Source of the DNA: an uncultured Oscillospiraceae bacterium | GTDB lineage: Bacteria > Bacillota > Clostridia > Oscillospirales > Oscillospiraceae | DNA: 32,396 nt | NCBI GenBank assembly: GCA_944385485.1 | Contig: CALWXL010000011.1 | Location: 1 to 32,396, forward strand | Reading direction: 5' to 3' | Shown: positions 3,309 to 11,520 of the stretch, in pieces | Position numbering within the stretch: position 1 is the first letter of the stretch | How the letters are laid out: each line of letters starts with the position of its first letter | Program-made: the position numbers and the translations under genes | The notes under the pieces: generated by a model | Databases searched by the model: none | Seen by the model: only the letters and a program-made list of their open reading frames with translations | What the model was told of the DNA's origin: nothing

Positions 3309-3350
3309 TGCCCACATCTTTTCCACTTTAGTGCATCAGAAAAAAAAGGC

Positions 3351-3379
3351 TTGCATTTTCCCACTCGTTGGGATATAAT
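3351..3379 (+). promoter_or_regulatory. Sigma-A promoter for the aromatic amino acid operon
   Basis: TTGCAT (3351-3356), a 17-bp spacer and a perfect TATAAT (3374-3379). Transcription would begin near 3386. That places the leader peptide ORF, the candidate antiterminator and the attenuator terminator at the 5' end of the transcript, about 250 nt before aroF. Confidence 0.8.
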
Positions 3380-3410
3380 GACCTCACTTCATAAAGCGAG
3401 GTTTGCAGCG

Positions 3411-3506
3411 ATGACCTACACTTCCGCCCACAACTTCATGGCTTATTATGGCTTTACTCGATTTACCGGGTACGGCTATTTTGTCATGGATCAATGCGGC
3501 ATATGA
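3411..3506 (+). CDS. Phe/Tyr-rich leader peptide (31 aa) of the aromatic operon attenuator
   Basis: ATG at 3411 opens a 31-codon ORF ending in TGA at 3504-3506. Nine of the 31 codons are aromatic. Tyr codons start at 3417, 3444, 3447, 3471 and 3477, and Phe codons at 3435, 3453, 3462 and 3480. There is no Trp. Two clusters stand out: tandem Tyr-Tyr (3444-3449) and Tyr-Gly-Tyr-Phe (3471-3482). A modest ribosome site, GCGAGG, lies 9 nt before the start. The ORF sits just after a strong promoter and before an intrinsic terminator, and the first downstream gene makes aromatic amino acid precursors. By analogy with pheA/trp leaders, ribosome pausing at scarce Phe- or Tyr-tRNA would control termination. 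The peptide itself is probably not functional. The role is inferred from arrangement and composition only. Confidence 0.83.
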   Translation: MTYTSAHNFMAYYGFTRFTGYGYFVMDQCGI

Positions 3507-3577
3507 GTGAGGCATTTTGCACCCAGCTTATGGGGGCAGAATCGAACATACCGAAACGGAACGCTCATTGACGCATG
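3485..3577 (+). promoter_or_regulatory. Candidate antiterminator pairing of the aromatic attenuator
   Basis: CATGGATCAATG (3485-3496), at the end of the leader ORF, can pair with CATTGACGCATG (3566-3577). Ten of 12 positions pair: 6 bp, a 2x2 internal loop, then 4 bp. This pairing would consume the 5' arm and loop of the terminator stem (3562-3593) and prevent its formation. A ribosome reaching the stop codon at 3504 would cover 3485-3496 and allow termination. A ribosome held at the earlier aromatic codons (for example 3444-3464) would leave it free. Stalling at the last cluster (3477-3482) might still mask it partly, so the exact switch is uncertain. A second hairpin (TGCACCC/GGGGGCA, near 3518-3539) lies between the arms. 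Confidence 0.55.
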
Positions 3578-3605
3578 TGGCAGTCAATGGGCGATTTTTT
3601 ATTTT
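3562..3605 (+). terminator. Attenuator terminator upstream of aroF
   Basis: CGCTCATTGAC (3562-3572) pairs with GTCAATGGGCG (3583-3593): 11 bp with one G-U pair and a 10-nt loop. A then T6-A-T4 follow. It lies downstream of the leader ORF and 30 nt before the aroF start, so every operon transcript must read through it. The stem is strong enough to act as an intrinsic terminator. Confidence 0.88.
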
Positions 3606-3635
3606 ATCTCGCCACACTGAAAGGAAGGATTTACC

Positions 3636-4658
3636 ATGGTTATTGTTATGAAACCCTCTGCCACCCAGGATACCATCCAGGCTCTGGCCCACCAGCTGGA
3701 GACAGACCATCCGGAAGTACGGGTGAGCATCACCAAAGGCGTGGGCTGCTCCATTCTGGGTCTGGTGGGAGACACCTCCCGCATCGACCAGGATAAGATC
3801 ACCATTCACGACGACGTGGATCGGGTGATGCGGGTGCAGGAGCCTTACAAAAAGGCCAACCGCAAGTTCCACCCCGAGGACAGCGCCGTGCGGGTTGGGG
3901 ATGCCGTCATCGGTGGGGGCGGATTCACCGTCATCGCCGGGCCCTGCTCGGTGGAGAGCCGGGAGCAGATCATCGACGTGGCCCAGTCCGTGAAGGCCTC
4001 CGGAGCCTCCCTGCTGCGAGGCGGCGCCTTCAAGCCTCGCACCTCCCCCTACGCCTTCCAGGGCATGGGCACACCCGGCCTGGATCTGCTGCTGGAGGCC
4101 AAGGCAGAGACCGGACTTCCCATTGTCACCGAGCTGATGAGTCCCAAGTACTGCGAGCTGTTCGAGGAAAAGGTGGATGTGGTGCAGATCGGCGCCCGGA
4201 ACATGCAGAACTTTGATCTGCTCAAAGAGGTGGGCAAGATGTCCAAGCCCATTTTGCTCAAGCGGGGCCTGGCCAACACCTACGAGGAGTGGATCATGTC
4301 GGCTGAGTACATCATGGCTTCCGGCAATGAAAATGTCATCCTGTGTGAGCGGGGCGTGCGCACCTTTGAGACCTACACCCGCAACACCCTGGATCTGTCC
4401 GCTATCCCCGCCATCCGCCGCATGAGCCACCTGCCCATCGTGGTAGACCCCTCCCACGCCGCCGGCATGTACTGGATGGTGGAGCCTCTGGCCATGGCCG
4501 CCGCCGCTGTGGGCGCCGATGGCCTGATGATCGAAGTACACAACAACCCCGCCTGCGCTCTGTGCGACGGACAGCAGTCCCTGACCCCCGAGAAGTTCCG
4601 CCGCCTCATGGATAAGGTGACTCCCCTGGTGGAGTTGATGGGCAAGACTTTGACCTAA
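3636..4658 (+). CDS. aroF: 3-deoxy-7-phosphoheptulonate (DAHP) synthase, type I-beta with N-terminal ferredoxin-like domain
   Basis: It condenses phosphoenolpyruvate with erythrose-4-phosphate, the first committed step of the shikimate pathway, in the cytoplasm. Residues 1-~70 form the ferredoxin-like/ACT-like regulatory domain seen in the Thermotoga-type enzyme, which in that family mediates feedback by Tyr/Phe. The TIM barrel follows, with 'AGPCSVES' (metal-ligand Cys) near residue 105, 'GGAFKPRTSPYAFQG' near 128, 'RGVRTFETYTRNTLD' near 233, 'VDPSHAAG' near 271 and 'IEVHNNPA' near 299. Length of 340 aa matches the family. The start is set by GAAAGGAAGG at 3618-3627. It is the first structural gene after the Phe/Tyr attenuator, so it probably has both transcriptional and allosteric control. 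The symbol aroF is used loosely, since relatives are also called aroA or aroG. Confidence 0.97.
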   Translation: MVIVMKPSATQDTIQALAHQLETDHPEVRVSITKGVGCSILGLVGDTSRIDQDKITIHDDVDRVMRVQEPYKKANRKFHPEDSAVRVGDAVIGGGGFTVIAGPCSVESREQIIDVAQSVKASGASLLRGGAFKPRTSPYAFQGMGTPGLDLLLEAKAETGLPIVTELMSPKYCELFEEKVDVVQIGARNMQNFDLLKEVGKMSKPILLKRGLANTYEEWIMSAEYIMASGNENVILCERGVRTFETYTRNTLDLSAIPAIRRMSHLPIVVDPSHAAGMYWMVEPLAMAAAAVGADGLMIEVHNNPACALCDGQQSLTPEKFRRLMDKVTPLVELMGKTLT

Positions 4659-4686: not shown

Positions 4687-5019
4687 ATGGCCATGTTGGA
4701 ACGCACCCTCAACGGAGACTTTTACGAGGTTCTTCACACCCTGCACAATGCCATTTTGGAAGGCAGCATGTCCGCCTCCTATGAAAATGGAAACGACTAC
4801 ATGATGGGAGATACCCACTGTGCCATACGTATGTATGAACGGTACAGCGCCATGGGCAACAACCGGGTGGCCTTGTGTTTTTTGCTCACGGGTCTGGACA
4901 ACCAGCTTCACCTCACTGCCATCACCGCCGGCGGCAGCCAGGCCATGTTCTTCAAAATCAACACCTTGGGGGAGGATGCCTTCTTGGACACCCTGGCCCA
5001 AGCGCTAGACAAACTCTGA
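4687..5019 (+). CDS. Small DUF6054-like protein of unknown function inside the aromatic operon
   Basis: A 110-aa soluble protein without signal peptide or membrane segment. The sequence resembles what I recall of the DUF6054 family in Clostridia, with the central motif 'CAIRMYERYS' and the C-terminal 'AGGSQAMFFKINTLGEDAFL'. This assignment is from memory and was not searched. A GAGAGGAGC ribosome site lies about 8 nt before ATG 4687. The gene starts 28 bp after aroF and ends 15 bp before aroB, so it is co-transcribed. No catalytic motif is recognisable. Position between steps 1 and 2 of the shikimate pathway hints at a link to the pathway, but relatives need not sit there. A second ATG two codons later (4693) is also possible. 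Confidence 0.85.
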   Translation: MAMLERTLNGDFYEVLHTLHNAILEGSMSASYENGNDYMMGDTHCAIRMYERYSAMGNNRVALCFLLTGLDNQLHLTAITAGGSQAMFFKINTLGEDAFLDTLAQALDKL

Positions 5020-5034
5020 GAGGAGAATTTCCCC

Positions 5035-6096
5035 ATGCGCACCCTCACAGTCCCCCTCCCCGGACGGGAGTACAACCTGCTCATTCAATCCGGCCTGCTC
5101 CCCGGCTCCGGGGGCTACATCCGATCCCTGCTCCCCCGCTGCCGCAAGGCCGCCCTGGTCACCGACACCAACGTGGCCCCGCTGTACGGCCAAACCGTGG
5201 TGGACAGCCTCACCCAGGCGGGGTTCCAGGTGGAGACCTTCGTGGTCCCCGCCGGAGAGGCCAGCAAAAACGCCCAGCAGCTTTCCCAGCTATGGGGCGG
5301 CTTCGCCCGCTTTGGCCTGACCCGCACCGACTGCGTGGTGGCCCTGGGGGGCGGCGTCGTGGGGGATCTGGCGGGCTTTGCCGCCGCCACCATTCTGCGG
5401 GGGGTGGCCCTCATTCAGATCCCCACCACCCTGCTCTCACAGGTGGACTCCTCGGTGGGGGGCAAGGTGGCCATCGACCTGCCCGAGGGAAAGAACCTGG
5501 CAGGGGCCTTCTATCAGCCCCGGCTGGTGCTCATGGACCCCAATACCCTGAACACCCTGCCCGACGAGACCTTTGCCGACGGCATGGCGGAGGTCATCAA
5601 GTACGGATGCATTGCAGACGATGCCTTCCTGGAGTTTTTGAGCCAAAACCTCTCCCGCGCCTCCATCATGGCCCACATCGGCCAGGTGCTCTACACCTGC
5701 TGCCACATCAAGGCAGAGGTGGTAGCCGAGGACGAGCTGGACACGGGACGGCGGATGATTCTCAACTTTGGCCACACTCTGGGCCACGCCTACGAGCTGG
5801 CCGGGCACTACTCCACTTACACCCACGGCCAGGCTGTGGCCGCCGGGATGGTGCGGGCGGCTGAGCTGGGCACCGCCCTGGGGCTCACCCCCGCCCACCT
5901 GTCCGGCTCCATCGCCCGGCTGGTCTCCGCCTTCGGTCTGCCCACCGCCATTCCCTGCTCCCCGCAGGAGTATGAGGCCGCCATCGGCCTGGACAAAAAG
6001 GGGGCTGGCTCCTCCATCTCCCTCATTCTCCTGGACCGACCTGGCCACGCCGTGGCCTATCCCATTCCAAAACAGCAGCTGCTGGCCATGCTGTAA
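5035..6096 (+). CDS. aroB: 3-dehydroquinate synthase
   Basis: It converts DAHP to 3-dehydroquinate, shikimate pathway step 2, using NAD+ as a recycled cofactor and a divalent metal (Zn or Co). The 353-aa length is normal. The NAD-binding segment 'GGGVVGDLAGFAAATILRG' lies near residues 104-122, followed by 'IPTTLLSQVDSSVGGK'. 'GMAEVIKYG' near 185 and the metal-binding histidine segments 'FGHTLGHAYE' near 243 and 'THGQAVAAGM' near 263 complete the active site. GAGAGGAG lies 8-9 nt before the ATG. It is the third structural gene of the operon, with 12 bp to aroA. Confidence 0.97.
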   Translation: MRTLTVPLPGREYNLLIQSGLLPGSGGYIRSLLPRCRKAALVTDTNVAPLYGQTVVDSLTQAGFQVETFVVPAGEASKNAQQLSQLWGGFARFGLTRTDCVVALGGGVVGDLAGFAAATILRGVALIQIPTTLLSQVDSSVGGKVAIDLPEGKNLAGAFYQPRLVLMDPNTLNTLPDETFADGMAEVIKYGCIADDAFLEFLSQNLSRASIMAHIGQVLYTCCHIKAEVVAEDELDTGRRMILNFGHTLGHAYELAGHYSTYTHGQAVAAGMVRAAELGTALGLTPAHLSGSIARLVSAFGLPTAIPCSPQEYEAAIGLDKKGAGSSISLILLDRPGHAVAYPIPKQQLLAML

Positions 6097-6108
6097 CGAG
6101 GTATTTCT

Positions 6109-7335
6109 ATGAACGTCACCATTACCCCTACCACACTCCACGGCCCCGTCACCCCGCCCCCCTCCAAAAGCCAGGCCCATCGGCTCATCATTGCCGCCGC
6201 CCTGGCAGGGGGAGAGAGCGTGCTCCACAACGTGGCCCGCTCCCAGGACATTCTGGCCACCATCCGGTGCATGGAGGCCCTGGGCGCCACCTTCACCTGG
6301 TCCGGGTCCACCCTGACGGTGCAGGGCCTCACCATGAACCGCCCCGTTTCCCCACTTCCCCGCCTGGACTGCGGGGAGTCCGGCTCCACCCTGCGCTTTC
6401 TCATCCCCATCGCTCTGGCGGTGGCGGGAGGCGGGGTGTTTACCGGACAGGGACGGCTGATGGAGCGGCCCCAGAAGCCCTATTTTGACCTCTTCGATGC
6501 CAAGGGCATCTCTTACTCCCTGGAAAACGGGGTACTCACGGTCCAGGGCCAGCTTCCCGCCGGAGACTACCCCCTCCCCGGCAACGTGTCCAGCCAGTTC
6601 GTCACCGGCCTGCTGTACGCCCTGCCTCTGGTGGAGGGCACCTCCACCATCACCCTCACCTCTCCCCTGGAGTCGGAGGACTACGTGGCCATGACCCGGC
6701 AGGCTCTGACCCAGGCGGGCATCACCCTGGACGGGTACACCATTCCCGGAGGGCAGCGCTATTCCCCCATCCGGGGCAGCGTGGAGGCGGACTGGTCCCA
6801 GGCGGGCTTCTTCTACGCCGGGCTGGGGCTGGGCAATGACCTGAACATCCAAGGCCTGGACCCCCACTCTCCCCAGGGAGATCGGCGCATCGTCTCCTTC
6901 TATGAACAGCTCACCGGGCCGGAGGCAGACATCACCCTGGACGTGAGCCAGTGCCCCGACCTGGTGCCCCCTCTGGCCGCTCTGGCCGCTGGCATGGCGG
7001 GAAAGACCTGCCACATCGTGGGGGCGGCCCGGCTGCGCATCAAGGAGAGCGACCGCCTGGCCACCACCTCCCAGGTACTCACCGCCCTGGGCGCCCAGGT
7101 GGAAGAGCTCTCCGAGGGGCTGACCATTCGGGGCGTGCCCCAGTTTGCCGGGGGCGTCACCGTCCCCTGTCACAACGACCACCGCATCGCCATGATGGCG
7201 GCCATGGCCGCCACCCGGTGCGTGTCTCCCATCACCCTGACGGGGGCCCAGTGCGTGGCCAAATCCTTCCCCGACTTCTGGGAGGTCTACCAGCAGCTGG
7301 GTGGAACCATTACAAAAAGCGAGGATAACCTATGA
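6109..7335 (+). CDS. aroA: 3-phosphoshikimate 1-carboxyvinyltransferase (EPSP synthase)
   Basis: It transfers the enolpyruvyl group of PEP to shikimate-3-phosphate, pathway step 6. Of 408 residues, 'PPSKSQAHRLIIAAALAGG' near 19-37 carries the conserved Lys and Arg. 'DCGESGSTLRFLIPIAL' near 87, 'GRLMERPQ' near 118, 'RIKESDRL' near 309 and 'HNDHRIAMMAAMAAT' near 357 are the other substrate-binding segments. The segment around 'DCGESGSTLR' keeps the Gly-Glu-Ser-Gly-Ser-Thr pattern of the family. A modest GAGG ribosome site follows the aroB stop. Its stop overlaps the aroC start by 4 nt (ATGA at 7332), a sign of translational coupling. Confidence 0.97.
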   Translation: MNVTITPTTLHGPVTPPPSKSQAHRLIIAAALAGGESVLHNVARSQDILATIRCMEALGATFTWSGSTLTVQGLTMNRPVSPLPRLDCGESGSTLRFLIPIALAVAGGGVFTGQGRLMERPQKPYFDLFDAKGISYSLENGVLTVQGQLPAGDYPLPGNVSSQFVTGLLYALPLVEGTSTITLTSPLESEDYVAMTRQALTQAGITLDGYTIPGGQRYSPIRGSVEADWSQAGFFYAGLGLGNDLNIQGLDPHSPQGDRRIVSFYEQLTGPEADITLDVSQCPDLVPPLAALAAGMAGKTCHIVGAARLRIKESDRLATTSQVLTALGAQVEELSEGLTIRGVPQFAGGVTVPCHNDHRIAMMAAMAATRCVSPITLTGAQCVAKSFPDFWEVYQQLGGTITKSEDNL

Positions 7336-8378
7336 ACTATACCATTTTCGGCGAATCCCACGGCCCTGCCATCGGGGTCACCCTCACCGGAGTGCCCGCC
7401 GGGCTGGAGCTGGACTGGAATGCCATCCAAACAGACATGGCCCGCCGGGCCCCCGGCAAGTCCCCCTTAGCCACCGCCCGGAAGGAGGCCGACCAGGTGC
7501 AGGTGCTCTCCGGAGTGTTTGAGGGCAAGACCACCGGCTCCCCTCTGTGCGCCATGATTGCCAACACCGACACCCGCTCGGCCGATTACAGCCGCACTCG
7601 TGACCTGGCCCGGCCCGGCCACGCCGACTATCCCGCCCACGTCCGCTACCAGGGCTTTAACGACTACCGGGGCGGCGGACACTTCTCCGGACGGCTCACC
7701 GCCCCTCTGGTGTTTGCCGGGGCCATTGCCAAGCAGATTCTGGCCCAGCGAAACATCTATGTGGGGGCCCACATCAGCTCCATCTACGGTGTCAACGACG
7801 AGGCTCTGGAGGACTGGGACACCCTGAAGGGTGTGGCGGACAAGGAGTTTCCGGTTCTGAATGATGAGAAGGGCGCCGAGATGCAGGAGGCCATTTTGGA
7901 GGCCAAGGAAGAGCAGGACTCGGTGGGTGGGTCCATTGAGTGCGGGGTGTTCGGGCTCCCCGCCGGATACGGCTCCCCTGACTTTGGGGAGAACGCCGAG
8001 GGCATCTTCTCCCAGTACCTGTTTGCCGTCCCGGCGGTGAAGGCGGTGGCCTTCGGCGCTGGCACCGCCTTCTCCCTCATGCGGGGCTCCGAGGCCAACG
8101 ACCCCCTGTACGTGGATGAACACGGCCAGGTGGGGGCGGAGCAGAACTGTGCCGGCGGCATCAACGGCGGCATCACCAACGGCATGCCCCTGGTGTTTGA
8201 GGTGACCATGCGTCCCACCCCCTCCATCTCCCGCACCCAATTTACCATCGATATGAGCCGCATGGAAAATGCGGAGCTGACCTTACAGGGGCGGCACGAC
8301 CCCTGCGTGGTTCCCCGGGCGGTTCCTGTCATTGAAGCCGCTGCAGCCCTGGCCGCCTGCCAGCTGCTGGGAATTTGA
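7332..8378 (+). CDS. aroC: Chorismate synthase
   Basis: It converts EPSP to chorismate, the last shared step, using reduced FMN as a catalyst. The 348-aa length is at the short end of the family. 'GESHGPAIGVTLTGVPAG' opens the protein, and 'RRAPGKSPLATARKEAD' near residue 36 follows. 'RPGHADYPA', 'GGGHFSGRLTAPLVFAG' near 112 and 'RHDPCVVPRAVPVIEA' at the C-terminus are the signature regions of the FMN and phosphate site. Overlaps the end of aroA by 4 nt. After it the operon is interrupted by a 220-bp gap carrying a dispersed repeat before pheA. Confidence 0.97.
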   Translation: MNYTIFGESHGPAIGVTLTGVPAGLELDWNAIQTDMARRAPGKSPLATARKEADQVQVLSGVFEGKTTGSPLCAMIANTDTRSADYSRTRDLARPGHADYPAHVRYQGFNDYRGGGHFSGRLTAPLVFAGAIAKQILAQRNIYVGAHISSIYGVNDEALEDWDTLKGVADKEFPVLNDEKGAEMQEAILEAKEEQDSVGGSIECGVFGLPAGYGSPDFGENAEGIFSQYLFAVPAVKAVAFGAGTAFSLMRGSEANDPLYVDEHGQVGAEQNCAGGINGGITNGMPLVFEVTMRPTPSISRTQFTIDMSRMENAELTLQGRHDPCVVPRAVPVIEAAAALAACQLLGI

Positions 8379-8446
8379 TTTTTGGCCGGGACGGCGAGAG
8401 AAGTGAAGCGTGAAACATTGGACACGAACTGGAGGGCTCGACAAAA

Positions 8447-8570
8447 GGCTCCCCTGTGCAAGGGGAGCTGGCAGCCCGTAGGGCTGACTGAGGGGTTGAC
8501 CCAGGCCAGGTGACAGACAATCCCTCCGACCCGGCTAACGCCGGGCCACCTCCCTTTACACAAGGGAGGC
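8447..8570. repeat. Dispersed paired double-hairpin repeat, copy 1 (inside the aromatic operon)
   Basis: It has two ~52-nt half units in opposite orientation. Half A (8447-8498) holds the stems GCTCCCC/GGGGAGC and AGCCC/GGGCT and ends in GGGGTTG. Half B (8518-8570) begins CAATCCCTCC and holds CCCGGC/GCCGGG and CCTCCC/GGGAGG with a TTTACACAA loop. The same element is found at 16692-16815 and 26413-26535. It fills most of the 219-bp aroC-pheA gap. The remaining sequence (8379-8446) shows no gene. Transcribed copies could affect read-through or mRNA stability. Confidence 0.9.
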
Positions 8571-8597
8571 TGATTTCGAAGTTTGGAGGCCATTCCC

Positions 8598-9755
8598 ATG
8601 GAAGAATTGCAGCAGTATAGAGAAGAAATCGACCGCATTGACCGCCAAATGGTGGAGCTGTTCCGCCAGCGCATGGCCGTCACCGCCCAGGTGGGCCAGT
8701 ACAAGCTGGAGCGTGGCATCCCCGTGTTGGACGCCGTGCGGGAGCGGCAGGTATTGCAGGACAAGGCCCGGCTGGTGGACGGGGACCTGCGCCCCGGCGT
8801 CACCACCCTGTTTCAGACCCTCATGTCCATCTCCCGCCGCCAACAGCGGGATCTGACCCGGGAACGGGCGGACAATCCCGGCTTGCCCCGGTTTGTCCAG
8901 GCCCTGTCCGGGGTACGCACCCCGGTGGAACACCCTCGGGTGGTGTTCCAGGGCGTGGGCGGCGCATACAGTGAACAGGCCTGTGTCAACTTCTTCGGCG
9001 AAGAGGTCCAGGCCACCGGGCTGCCCCAGTTTGAGGATGCTTTCGTGGCCCTGAAGGAGGGCAAGGCGGACTACGCCGTGCTCCCCATTGAAAACAGCTC
9101 CACCGGAGCCATCCGCCAGATCTACGACCTGCTGGCCCAATACGATTTCTTCCTGGTGGGTGAGACCACGGTAAAGGTGGACCACTGCCTCATGGCTCTG
9201 CCTGGGGCCACCATGGACACCATCACCCACATCTACTCCCACGAGCAGGGCCTGCTGCAAAGCGCCAAGTTCTTAAGCCAGCATCCCACCTGGAAACAGG
9301 TCCCCCAGTGGGACACCGCTGGCTCGGCCCAGATGGTGGCCGCCAGCGGAGACCTAACCCGGGCGGCGCTGTGCTCGGCCCGGGCCGCCAAGCTCTACGG
9401 GCTGAACATCCTGGCCTGCCCCACCAACGACAACCCCCACAACACCACCCGCTTTGTGGTGGTCTCCCCCCGCATGGAGCTGCGGGATGGTGCGGACAAG
9501 ATCAGTACCGTCTTTCTCCTCCCCCACGAAGCCGGCTCTCTCCACGAGATTCTCACCATTTTCGCCGTCCACGGGCTGAACATGGTCAAGCTGGAGTCCC
9601 GGCCCCTGCCCCGGCACAGCTGGGAGTACATGTTCTTTTTGGAGTTCACCGGAAACCTCAATACCCCGGAGATCGCCGACGTGCTCCACGAACTGTCCCA
9701 AACCACCGGAGACTTCCGGGTTTTGGGCAACTTTGTGTCTAATTTGGAGGAATAA
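8598..9755 (+). CDS. pheA: Bifunctional chorismate mutase/prephenate dehydratase (P-protein) with ACT domain
   Basis: It turns chorismate into prephenate and then phenylpyruvate, the committed branch to phenylalanine. Residues 1-~85 form an AroQ-class chorismate mutase helix bundle ('YREEIDRIDRQMVELFRQR', with 'YKLERGIPVLDAVRE'). The prephenate dehydratase domain spans ~110-290 with 'GVGGAYSEQA', 'LPIENSSTGAI' and the catalytic 'NTTRFVVVS'. The C-terminal ACT domain has 'EAGSLHEIL' and 'ESRP', the site of Phe feedback in the family. The start is ATG 8598, 8 nt after GGAGG (8585-8589). An upstream in-frame TTG at 8583 overlaps that ribosome site and is not used. It ends 2 bp before the aroK-aroQ fusion. 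Both feedback and the operon attenuator would respond to phenylalanine. Confidence 0.96.
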   Translation: MEELQQYREEIDRIDRQMVELFRQRMAVTAQVGQYKLERGIPVLDAVRERQVLQDKARLVDGDLRPGVTTLFQTLMSISRRQQRDLTRERADNPGLPRFVQALSGVRTPVEHPRVVFQGVGGAYSEQACVNFFGEEVQATGLPQFEDAFVALKEGKADYAVLPIENSSTGAIRQIYDLLAQYDFFLVGETTVKVDHCLMALPGATMDTITHIYSHEQGLLQSAKFLSQHPTWKQVPQWDTAGSAQMVAASGDLTRAALCSARAAKLYGLNILACPTNDNPHNTTRFVVVSPRMELRDGADKISTVFLLPHEAGSLHEILTIFAVHGLNMVKLESRPLPRHSWEYMFFLEFTGNLNTPEIADVLHELSQTTGDFRVLGNFVSNLEE

Positions 9756-9757
9756 CC

Positions 9758-10687
9758 ATGAAGAACATTATCCTCATTGGTATGATGGGCTGTGGAAAAA
9801 CCACCGCCGGACGTCTTTTGGCCCAGCAGCTGGGGCGTCCCTTTGTGGACTGTGACGAGCTCATGGAGGGACATACCGGGCGGACCATCTCGGAAATCTT
9901 TGCCCAGGATGGAGAGCGGGGCTTCCGCTCTCTGGAGAGCCAAGTGCTGGAACAGCTCAGCAACCAAGAGGGTCTTGTCATCGCCACCGGAGGCGGGGCA
10001 GTGCTCTCCCGAAACAATGTGGTCTCCCTGCGCCGCAACGGCATTTTGGTCTTTCTGGACCGTCCCATTGAGGAGATCTGTGCCACGCTGGACACCAAGG
10101 ACCGCCCCCTGGCCCAGGACGGGCACCAGGCCTTTGTGGCCCGGCACAACCACCGGATGCCCCACTATCTCACCGCCGCCGACGTGGTCATCCACGACTT
10201 TTCCACACCGGAGGAGACGGTTGCGGAAATTCTGGAGAAAATCTCCGAGCTGGGCAAGAAGTTTCTCATCATCAACGGCCCCAACCTGAACCTGCTGGGC
10301 AAGCGCAACCTGGGGCTGTACAACCATGAGAGCTACGCCTCCCTGTGCGCCATGATTCAGCGGTACGCCACCGAACACAACTCCACCGCCACCTGTTTCC
10401 AATCCAATCACGAGGGCGCCATCATCGACCAGATTCACGCCGCCGACGGGGTGTATGATGCCATCGTCATCAACCCCGGCGCCTACGCCCATTACAGCTA
10501 TGCCATTGCAGAGGCCATCCAAGGGGTGGATATTCCCGCCTTTGAGGTACATATCGGCAACGTCCACGCCCGGGAGCCCTATCGCTCCGGGTCTGTCACC
10601 GCCGAGGCCTGTGTGGGCCAGATCTACGGTCTGGGCTTCGAGGGTTACCTGCGGGCCATGGACTATTTCCTCAAAGGAGGGCAATAA
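9758..10687 (+). CDS. aroK-aroQ: Fused shikimate kinase - type II 3-dehydroquinate dehydratase
   Basis: This is a single 309-aa reading frame that joins two pathway enzymes. Residues 1-~165 are shikimate kinase (step 5): Walker A 'GMMGCGKTTAGRLLA' near residue 8, 'FVDCDELME' near 28, 'ERGFRSLESQVL' near 53, 'ATGGGAVL' near 75 and the lid region 'TKDRPLAQDG'. Residues ~168-309 are a compact type II dehydroquinase (step 3): 'IINGPNLNLLGKRNLGLYN' (catalytic Arg/Tyr region), 'SNHEGAIIDQIHAA' near 210, 'INPGAYAHYSYAIAEA' near 233 and 'EVHIGNVHAREPYRSGSV' near 264. No stop or shine site separates the halves, and each keeps its full set of motifs. AroE, the enzyme of step 4 that links these two reactions, starts 2 bp downstream. 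The fusion would join steps 3 and 5 around it. Confidence 0.95.
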   Translation: MKNIILIGMMGCGKTTAGRLLAQQLGRPFVDCDELMEGHTGRTISEIFAQDGERGFRSLESQVLEQLSNQEGLVIATGGGAVLSRNNVVSLRRNGILVFLDRPIEEICATLDTKDRPLAQDGHQAFVARHNHRMPHYLTAADVVIHDFSTPEETVAEILEKISELGKKFLIINGPNLNLLGKRNLGLYNHESYASLCAMIQRYATEHNSTATCFQSNHEGAIIDQIHAADGVYDAIVINPGAYAHYSYAIAEAIQGVDIPAFEVHIGNVHAREPYRSGSVTAEACVGQIYGLGFEGYLRAMDYFLKGGQ

Positions 10688-10689
10688 CG

Positions 10690-11520
10690 ATGCTGCAAGT
10701 CATTGGAGATCCCATCGCTCACTCCAAATCCCCCATCATCCAGACCACCATGCTGGACTATCTGGGTCTGGACATCCCCTATACGCCCCACCTGGTGAAA
10801 AAGGGGGATGTGGCCCAGTATCTGGCCTTTGCTGCGGCCAACCAGGTCACCGGTTTCAATTCCACCATGCCCCACAAGGAGGACCTGGTGCCCCTGATGG
10901 ATGAACTGGGGGAGGAAGTGCAGCGGTATGGAGCGGTCAACACCGTCTGTCTGCGGGACGGGAAATGGGTGGGACACAACACCGATGGGGACGGCTGCCT
11001 GGAATCCCTGGTCTATTCCGGCATGTGGCCGGCCCGGCAAGTGGTGCTGCTGGGGGCGGGAGGCGCCGCCCGGGCGGTGGCCCTGCGCCTGGCCCAGGCG
11101 GGAGCGGAGCGCATCTGGGTGTGCAACCGCACCCTGTCCAAGGCCCAGCAGCTGTGCCAGTTGGACCCCACCGGGGTCCTGGCCCCCGCAGGGTTTGACC
11201 TCGATACCCTGGCCCGGCTGTGCAGCCAGTCCCAGCTGGTCATCAACTGCACCAACCTGGGCATGAACGACTGCCCCCACCAGTTTGAGGACTTCTCCTT
11301 CCTGGATGTCCTGCCCCGGGATGCCGGGGTGATGGACCTGATCTATTACCCCGCCCAGACCCAACTGCTCCAGCAGGCCCAGGCCCGGGGACTGAACACC
11401 TGCAACGGCCTGCCCATGCTGGTGTATCAGGCCATCTTCTCTCTGGAGTATTTTTTGAACCGCTCCCTGCCCCGCGGCGAGCTGGCCAAGGCGGTGTTTG
11501 CCCGGCTGGCACAGGTTTAG
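10690..11520 (+). CDS. aroE: Shikimate dehydrogenase (NADP+)
   Basis: It reduces 3-dehydroshikimate to shikimate, pathway step 4. In 276 residues it shows the substrate segment 'GDPIAHSKSPIIQ' at the N-terminus, 'NSTMPHKEDLVPLMD' near 57 with the catalytic Lys, and 'GAVNTV' and 'GHNTDGDG' near 78-100. The Rossmann glycine loop 'LLGAGGAARAVALRLAQAG' lies near 119, and 'NGLPMLVYQ' near the C-terminus. Its AAAGGAGG ribosome site lies inside the end of the upstream fused gene, and only 2 bp separate the two. It is the last gene of the operon, 44 bp before a long terminator. Confidence 0.97.
   Translation: MLQVIGDPIAHSKSPIIQTTMLDYLGLDIPYTPHLVKKGDVAQYLAFAAANQVTGFNSTMPHKEDLVPLMDELGEEVQRYGAVNTVCLRDGKWVGHNTDGDGCLESLVYSGMWPARQVVLLGAGGAARAVALRLAQAGAERIWVCNRTLSKAQQLCQLDPTGVLAPAGFDLDTLARLCSQSQLVINCTNLGMNDCPHQFEDFSFLDVLPRDAGVMDLIYYPAQTQLLQQAQARGLNTCNGLPMLVYQAIFSLEYFLNRSLPRGELAKAVFARLAQV

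Follow-up and report, generated by a model that had tools for sequence, protein, structure and literature searches.

The window, as the whole stretch of DNA analysed here (32,396 nucleotides) is called, is contig 11 of an incomplete 1.77 Mb genome (86% complete) from an uncultured Oscillospiraceae bacterium. Its aroF gene is 96-98% identical to those of the three closest named records, Pseudoflavonifractor capillosus An386a, uncultured Oscillospiraceae bacterium and Candidatus Enterenecus avicola. The gap between cinA, on the minus strand, and aroF holds a promoter, a 31-codon ORF, a hairpin at 3519-3537 and a terminator. The features of this gap and of the operon that follows are:

3351-3379, plus strand: promoter read from the sequence, with -35 box TTGCAT (3351-3356), -10 box TATAAT (3374-3379) and a spacing of 17
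3398-3413, plus strand: Shine-Dalgarno-like GAGG (3398-3401) and ATG start of the leader ORF, from the sequence
3411-3506, plus strand: leader peptide ORF, MTYTSAHNFMAYYGFTRFTGYGYFVMDQCGI, 31 codons, nine of them Phe or Tyr and none Trp
3451-3476, plus strand: hairpin within the ORF over the control codons, with Phe codon UUU in its loop; a candidate RNA polymerase pause hairpin
3476-3481, plus strand: CTATTT at the 3' end of the in-ORF hairpin, matching the NusG pause consensus TTNTTT at five of six positions
3494-3509, plus strand: predicted antiterminator 5' strand, AUGCGgCAuAUGAGUG, overlapping the stop codon (3504-3506)
3519-3537, plus strand: hairpin nested in the antiterminator loop (GCACCCAGCTTATGGGGGC), from folding
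3562-3576, plus strand: predicted antiterminator 3' strand, which doubles as the terminator 5' arm and part of its loop
3562-3605, plus strand: intrinsic terminator, a hairpin at 3562-3593 (11 bp) with the tail A-T6-A-T4, from reading and folding
3636-4658, plus strand: aroF, DAHP synthase, type I, with a ferredoxin-like N-domain (Pfam)
4687-11520, plus strand: remainder of the operon, comprising DUF6054, aroB, aroA, aroC, pheA, an aroK-aroQ fusion and aroE (Pfam)

Pfam calls from aroF through aroE agree with the shikimate-to-Phe operon that a preliminary description of this DNA had placed after the leader, and the domains of the pheA product are CM-PDT-ACT. The operon includes a DUF6054 gene (PF19524; 4687-5019) between aroF and aroB, and one fused protein (9758-10687) combines shikimate kinase with type II dehydroquinase. 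The promoter proposed at 3351-3379 is borne out by conservation of both boxes in close relatives whose sequence reaches that far; its -35 box is weak, matching the consensus at three of six positions. Reading and folding likewise agree on an 11-bp intrinsic terminator with a T tail upstream of aroF, the 11 pairs including one G-U and enclosing a 10-nt loop. An automatic consensus scan of the window reported neither this promoter nor the terminator hairpin at 3562-3593 (its terminator search accepts loops of 3-8 nt), and its sole call on the plus strand was a terminator-like hairpin at 3455-3472, within the leader ORF. Both features were identified by reading plus comparison with relatives, and the terminator also by folding.

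The ORF at 3411-3506 has the length and codon content first read from it, and its Phe and Tyr codons (9/31) compare with 6.2% (314/5066) in 14 window genes (binomial p = 8e-5). Dinucleotide shuffling of 3381-3635 gave a comparable ORF, defined as 12-60 codons with at least 29% Phe/Tyr, in 25 of 1000 cases, so the single window sequence is no more than suggestive, and the main weight for the leader lies with its relatives. Of 136 distinct regions upstream of aroF relatives, 77 contained the leader peptide by an iterative peptide profile, an in-sample count. A terminator-like hairpin is present in all 77, its extent being doubtful in two (L123 and L131), and in 56 of 58 Oscillospiraceae leaders an in-frame ATG has an SD-like purine box in front of it. 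The median number of aromatic codons is eight across 110 leaders. In the N-terminal part of the peptide, third codon positions are no more variable than first and second positions (0.36, 0.42 and 0.36), so the substitution pattern gives no coding signal there.

A profile of 25 peptides, carrying no position information, was compared with 291 whole genomes of the class. Forty genomes matched, each at one place; these include at least the window itself and leaders with the L077 and L106 peptides, all of which are in the profile. The match lies upstream of an aroF-type DAHP synthase on the same strand in 29 genomes and upstream of pheA (three), tyrA, aroB or another DAHP synthase in six, so that 35 of the 40 precede aromatic-pathway genes; the other five, with E values of 0.0018-0.0072, lie elsewhere, context being judged by eye from ORFs. 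The remaining 251 genomes gave no match at E 0.01, and short peptides are easily missed. In the window's own genome the sole profile match is the aroF leader. Records with the leader at aroF come from Oscillospiraceae, Clostridium, Lachnospiraceae, Christensenella, Sporomusa and Pelosinus.

Of 39 genomes examined within the genus (out of 42, with G004, G014 and G034 left out), 31 carry the leader. Among the eight congeners without the peptide, five lack ORF and terminator together and three (L023, L115 and L118) keep the terminator with no aromatic ORF; expression in these three should be low or differently controlled. In L023 a deletion seems to run from just past the -10 box nearly to the terminator. 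That three congeners have a terminator but no aromatic ORF is a point in favour of the ORF being a small functional protein, or serving re-initiation only, next to a constitutive, partial terminator. Peptide sequence and length vary widely, however, and the stop-codon region remains complementary to the terminator arm in distantly related groups (see below); we regard this explanation as extremely improbable.

The biosynthetic repertoire of the window's clade was also compared with the codons in its leaders. tyrA scored above the cut-off in six of seven close genomes, the window's own (86% complete) giving a weak match only, and a chorismate-binding TrpE-type protein was found in none of the seven genomes of the clade (G000 and six congeners), a combination that fits the Phe/Tyr-only codons there. 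TrpA was present in one of these seven, G024. Across the family, TrpE-type proteins occurred in genomes of 0/10 leaders without Trp codons versus 8/39 with them (Fisher p = 0.18), and we therefore make no claim relating Trp codons to Trp synthesis. Such proteins were found in 8 of 12 leaderless genomes versus 8 of 49 (p = 0.0012), an association that is only noted here because several leaderless genomes are close kin.

The preliminary description had also proposed an antiterminator in which 3485-3496 pairs with 3566-3577. These segments do pair at 10 of 12 positions, but 267 of 500 shuffles reach the same number and six relatives retain only 7-8 of 12, and this pairing was rejected. Folding the RNA that a ribosome would leave free instead gives a 14-bp helix between 3494-3509 and 3562-3576 around the nested hairpin. 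The helix forms in seven of seven close relatives (-13.4 to -15.8 kcal/mol), and none of 2000 column permutations was as good, for a segment preselected by folding; the fold of 3490-3582 was equalled by 5 of 200 shuffles. By sequence, the terminator and the 14-bp antiterminator are mutually exclusive. Comparison with relatives thus upholds the conserved ORF and terminator of the preliminary description and replaces its antiterminator with a different conserved helix.

Two other pairings were discarded. A partner for the terminator arm within the ORF of Flavonifractor-type leaders (ATGGGCGCC with GGCGCTCAT) fails in L040, where the terminator arm reads GCACATT and the sequence following the stop codon has changed to match; for this reason the stop-codon segment was favoured, such cases being few. 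Anchors for L032 and L004 were misplaced in one table read for this comparison, and no count draws on that table. The minimum-energy fold also contains a protector pairing between the beginning of the ORF and the stop region, for which inspection of the alignment by eye suggested no conservation.

Support for the stop-codon helix across the wider family differs among groups. An initial test for a contiguous helix gave p ≥ 0.05 in 67 of 77 leaders. Of 81 non-redundant leaders (the 110 minus similar ones), 25 form a helix with the terminator arm that is better than shuffles (p ≤ 0.05), most of the 25 belonging outside Oscillospiraceae, with a combined p of 1.5e-15 if leaders are treated as independent. 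A stricter shuffle test on energy gave p = 0.19 for the window's clade A (seven sequences) and p = 0.08 for the window alone, and 3e-7 for clade B, 5e-6 for clade C and 7e-10 for the distant group, values that are not independent because rows within a clade are related. This test and the position scan described next used 7, 24, 26 and 52 leaders (109 of 110, without L123). Unrelated letters still pair in L182 (11 bp), L160 (10 bp), L159 and L165, and in several Clostridium leaders a strand within the ORF, TAATGAGT (peptide S-N-E), pairs with ACTCATTA.

The dependence of this pairing on the point from which the RNA is free was then computed. In clade A the terminator 5' arm was held with probability 0.95-0.99 with RNA free from -60 to -12 of the stop codon and 0.34-0.48 with RNA free only from +6 to +30. 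In the window the corresponding values were about 0.86 (-85 to -10) and 0.05-0.13 (+5 to +15), with 0.43-0.70 for the longest, untranslated leaders. Shuffled upstream RNA still held the arm at 0.78 in clade A, 0.81 in B, 0.76 in C and 0.65 in the distant group, and in clades B and C the probability drops only to about 0.67-0.70 at +12, so the scan speaks for the direction of the effect more than for its specificity.

A second conserved structure lies within the ORF. The hairpin at 3451-3476 reaches 3448-3479 if folded freely, and in Oscillospiraceae each of 44 distinct 36-nt rows (57 leaders, with L142 left out for an insertion) forms a hairpin spanning the same codons. In covariation score, paired cells and double-change cells the alignment exceeds all 500 shuffles, and the number of pairs with double changes was reached by 120 of the 500; sliding the register by +1 gives more double-change cells (14 vs 13). 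RNAalifold returned no consensus pairs from this alignment, the pairs coming from single-sequence folds and pair counts. Fold z-scores average -4.0 in Oscillospiraceae (42/45 below -2) and -3.7 in distant Clostridia (16/19 below -2). When the peptide was held fixed and synonymous codons were drawn by each genome's aroF usage, the native hairpin exceeded its recodings in stability (p ≤ 0.05) for 17 of 19 distant leaders (-11.2 vs -4.4 kcal/mol) and for 13 of 58 Oscillospiraceae leaders (-15.3 vs -11.4 kcal/mol). A T-rich motif follows the hairpin directly: TTNTTT in 28 of 77 leaders (recoding predicts 7.1) and [CT]TNTTT in 60 of 77 (recoding predicts 13.8). The latter begins 0-2 nt past the hairpin end in folds limited to codon columns 38-49, a limit that favours such offsets, and a freely folded stem can extend a few nucleotides into the motif. 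The window leader has no strict TTNTTT, and CTATTT also replaces it in most genus members checked.

The placement of this hairpin bears on another reading of the leader, nascent-peptide arrest, of which tnaC is an example, in which the conserved R-F-x-G-x-G-[FY]-F would stall the ribosome on free aromatic amino acids rather than by slow decoding. The Oscillospiraceae peptide is indeed conserved beyond its Phe and Tyr residues, with Arg-Phe and a Gly near-invariant (57, 57 and 58 of 58). Most of this conservation, however, falls in the in-ORF RNA hairpin, where second codon positions are the most variable (0.087, 0.274 and 0.107) and Phe/Tyr swaps are included, and what distant members have in common is mainly the aromatic cluster plus a Gly. 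We consider arrest by the peptide unlikely.

Taken together, a Phe/Tyr leader-peptide attenuator before the shikimate-to-Phe operon, as the preliminary description had it, is well supported by comparison (ORF family, gene context and antiterminator), and the locus is very probably a ribosome-mediated transcription attenuator that tunes the operon to the supply of charged Phe- and Tyr-tRNA. From the ORF family, its gene context, the terminator, the conserved mutually exclusive helix and the in-ORF hairpin, all obtained by sequence comparison, we infer translation, stalling, pausing and a response to Phe/Tyr as follows. The leader ORF would be transcribed, and the ribosome would be able to catch up thanks to the hairpin spanning the control codons, a probable pause site for the polymerase. 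A terminating ribosome would cover the stop-codon strand, as ordinary ribosome footprints indicate. With ample charged tRNA, the ribosome would reach the stop codon at 3504-3506 and place its footprint over 3494-3509; with this strand covered, the terminator at 3562-3593 would form and transcription would stop. With scarce charged tRNA, the ribosome would wait at the Tyr and Phe codons (3444-3482), leaving 3494-3509 free to pair with 3562-3576, so that no terminator would form and the operon would be read. Since many relatives have the same arrangement, these bacteria probably sense a shortage of Phe and Tyr by the progress of a ribosome along the leader, and the family is a proposed controller of aromatic amino-acid synthesis in many gut bacteria.

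A tRNA- or metabolite-sensing riboswitch, of T-box type or with an unknown aptamer and with the ORF incidental, would account for control at the same position. The genome has 10 T-box matches, seven of them above the cut-off, the leader has a fold z-score of -5.2, and among 20 scanned loci where no leader peptide matched, five (L060, L061, L062, L079 and L102) have a T-box upstream of aroF. No Rfam family, T-box RF00230 included, matched 3340-3640 even at E 10, however, nor did any match 20 other leader loci at gathering scores, and the conserved structure sits within the ORF and at its stop codon; a riboswitch is thus very unlikely here. At the five aroF loci with T-boxes, one sensing system has been exchanged for another.

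The textbook controls of aromatic genes in Firmicutes are T-boxes and TRAP. Enteric pheL/pheA and trp attenuators consist of a leader peptide with control codons, a terminator and a mutually exclusive antiterminator, all of which the window leader shares. It differs from them in belonging to a different phylum with no Rfam match, in having its antiterminator strand at or beside the stop codon, and in carrying a separate hairpin within the ORF. Leader-peptide attenuation in Firmicutes was predicted in 2010 for hisS*/hisZ of bacilli (PMC2965389); according to the accessible text, this histidine leader was, like the window leader, recognized by comparison, and it differs in amino acid, genes and class. 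Closer to the window, the available part of Stav et al. 2019 (PMC6429828, Fig. 6b) reports two candidate uORFs with Phe and Tyr at shikimate metabolism genes, with Clostridium novyi among five genomes. Compared by description only, the window leader family likely corresponds to these uORFs, and it may in part be the family of 2019. The uORFC-13-1 motif (Brewer et al. 2021, PMC8632094; 24 representatives) is an Acholeplasma aroF uORF, also found in unassigned environmental sequence; as described there it resembles the window leader in having a uORF with at least one Phe codon before aroF and before an intrinsic terminator, together with a further base-paired element. By the same partial description it is, unlike the window leader, reported only from Acholeplasma and environmental sequence, with an antiterminator not described. 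Because such leaders are reported in the accessible portions of PMC2965389, PMC6429828 and PMC8632094, the kind is known, and the earlier assessment of the system as unusual and not well described was only partly right. In the openly accessible main-text literature covered, we found no description of the antiterminator, the in-ORF hairpin or the Clostridia-wide spread; the main text of a C. difficile RNA survey (PMC3649979) mentions neither leader peptide nor aroF in the part available, and aroF is likewise unmentioned in the accessible text of a T-box survey (PMC2494555). New here is the hairpin inside the ORF over the control codons, followed by [CT]TNTTT.

This hairpin may matter because B. 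subtilis polymerase outruns the lead ribosome, as stated in the accessible text of PMC9226507, so that leader-peptide attenuation should be hard. In the tlrB leader of B. subtilis a NusG-dependent pause synchronises the polymerase with the leader ribosome (PMC6851288, available text). As far as these two sources describe them, the tlrB and vmlR leaders (PMC6851288, PMC9226507) share with the window leader a uORF and an attenuator; they have a NusG-dependent pause with a hairpin, to which the in-ORF hairpin would be a candidate counterpart, and they differ in sensing antibiotics and in pausing after the uORF, not within control codons. In NusG-dependent pauses TTNTTT occupies -11 to -6 relative to the RNA 3' end and a hairpin ends 11-12 nt upstream of it, the T-rich motif by itself being insufficient, and the pro-pausing NusG residues of B. 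subtilis are N81 and T82 (PMC12288461, in the part available). The in-ORF hairpin and its T-rich motif resemble such pauses, and a polymerase pause there, possibly NusG-dependent, is plausible; at CTATTT it would put the RNA 3' end near 3486. Counting against this reading are CTATTT in place of TTNTTT in the window, the Ile at the T82 position of its NusG (see below) and the insufficiency of the motif by itself. That the control codons double as a pause signal, the hairpin and T-rich motif halting the polymerase just before the antiterminator strand, is a tentative proposal, to which we give somewhat less than even weight. If true, an attenuator in the style of the tryptophan operon would be workable where polymerase normally outruns the ribosome, and a double-coded attenuator would be in broad use across Clostridia to control aromatic amino-acid synthesis. 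Because its sensing codons hold a candidate pause signal, the family makes the problem of a polymerase outrunning its ribosome directly testable.

The residues corresponding to N81 and T82 were located in NusG proteins by what we take to be the B. subtilis NusG motif. NusG of the window's genome reads RNI, with N kept and Ile in place of T82, the residue said to recognise the T-rich motif of the pause, positions being matched by eye. In the 32 rows compared (L208-L239, two of them missed by the pattern), Oscillospiraceae have RNI or RNV versus RNT in 8 of 10 distant Clostridia, the other two being those missed.
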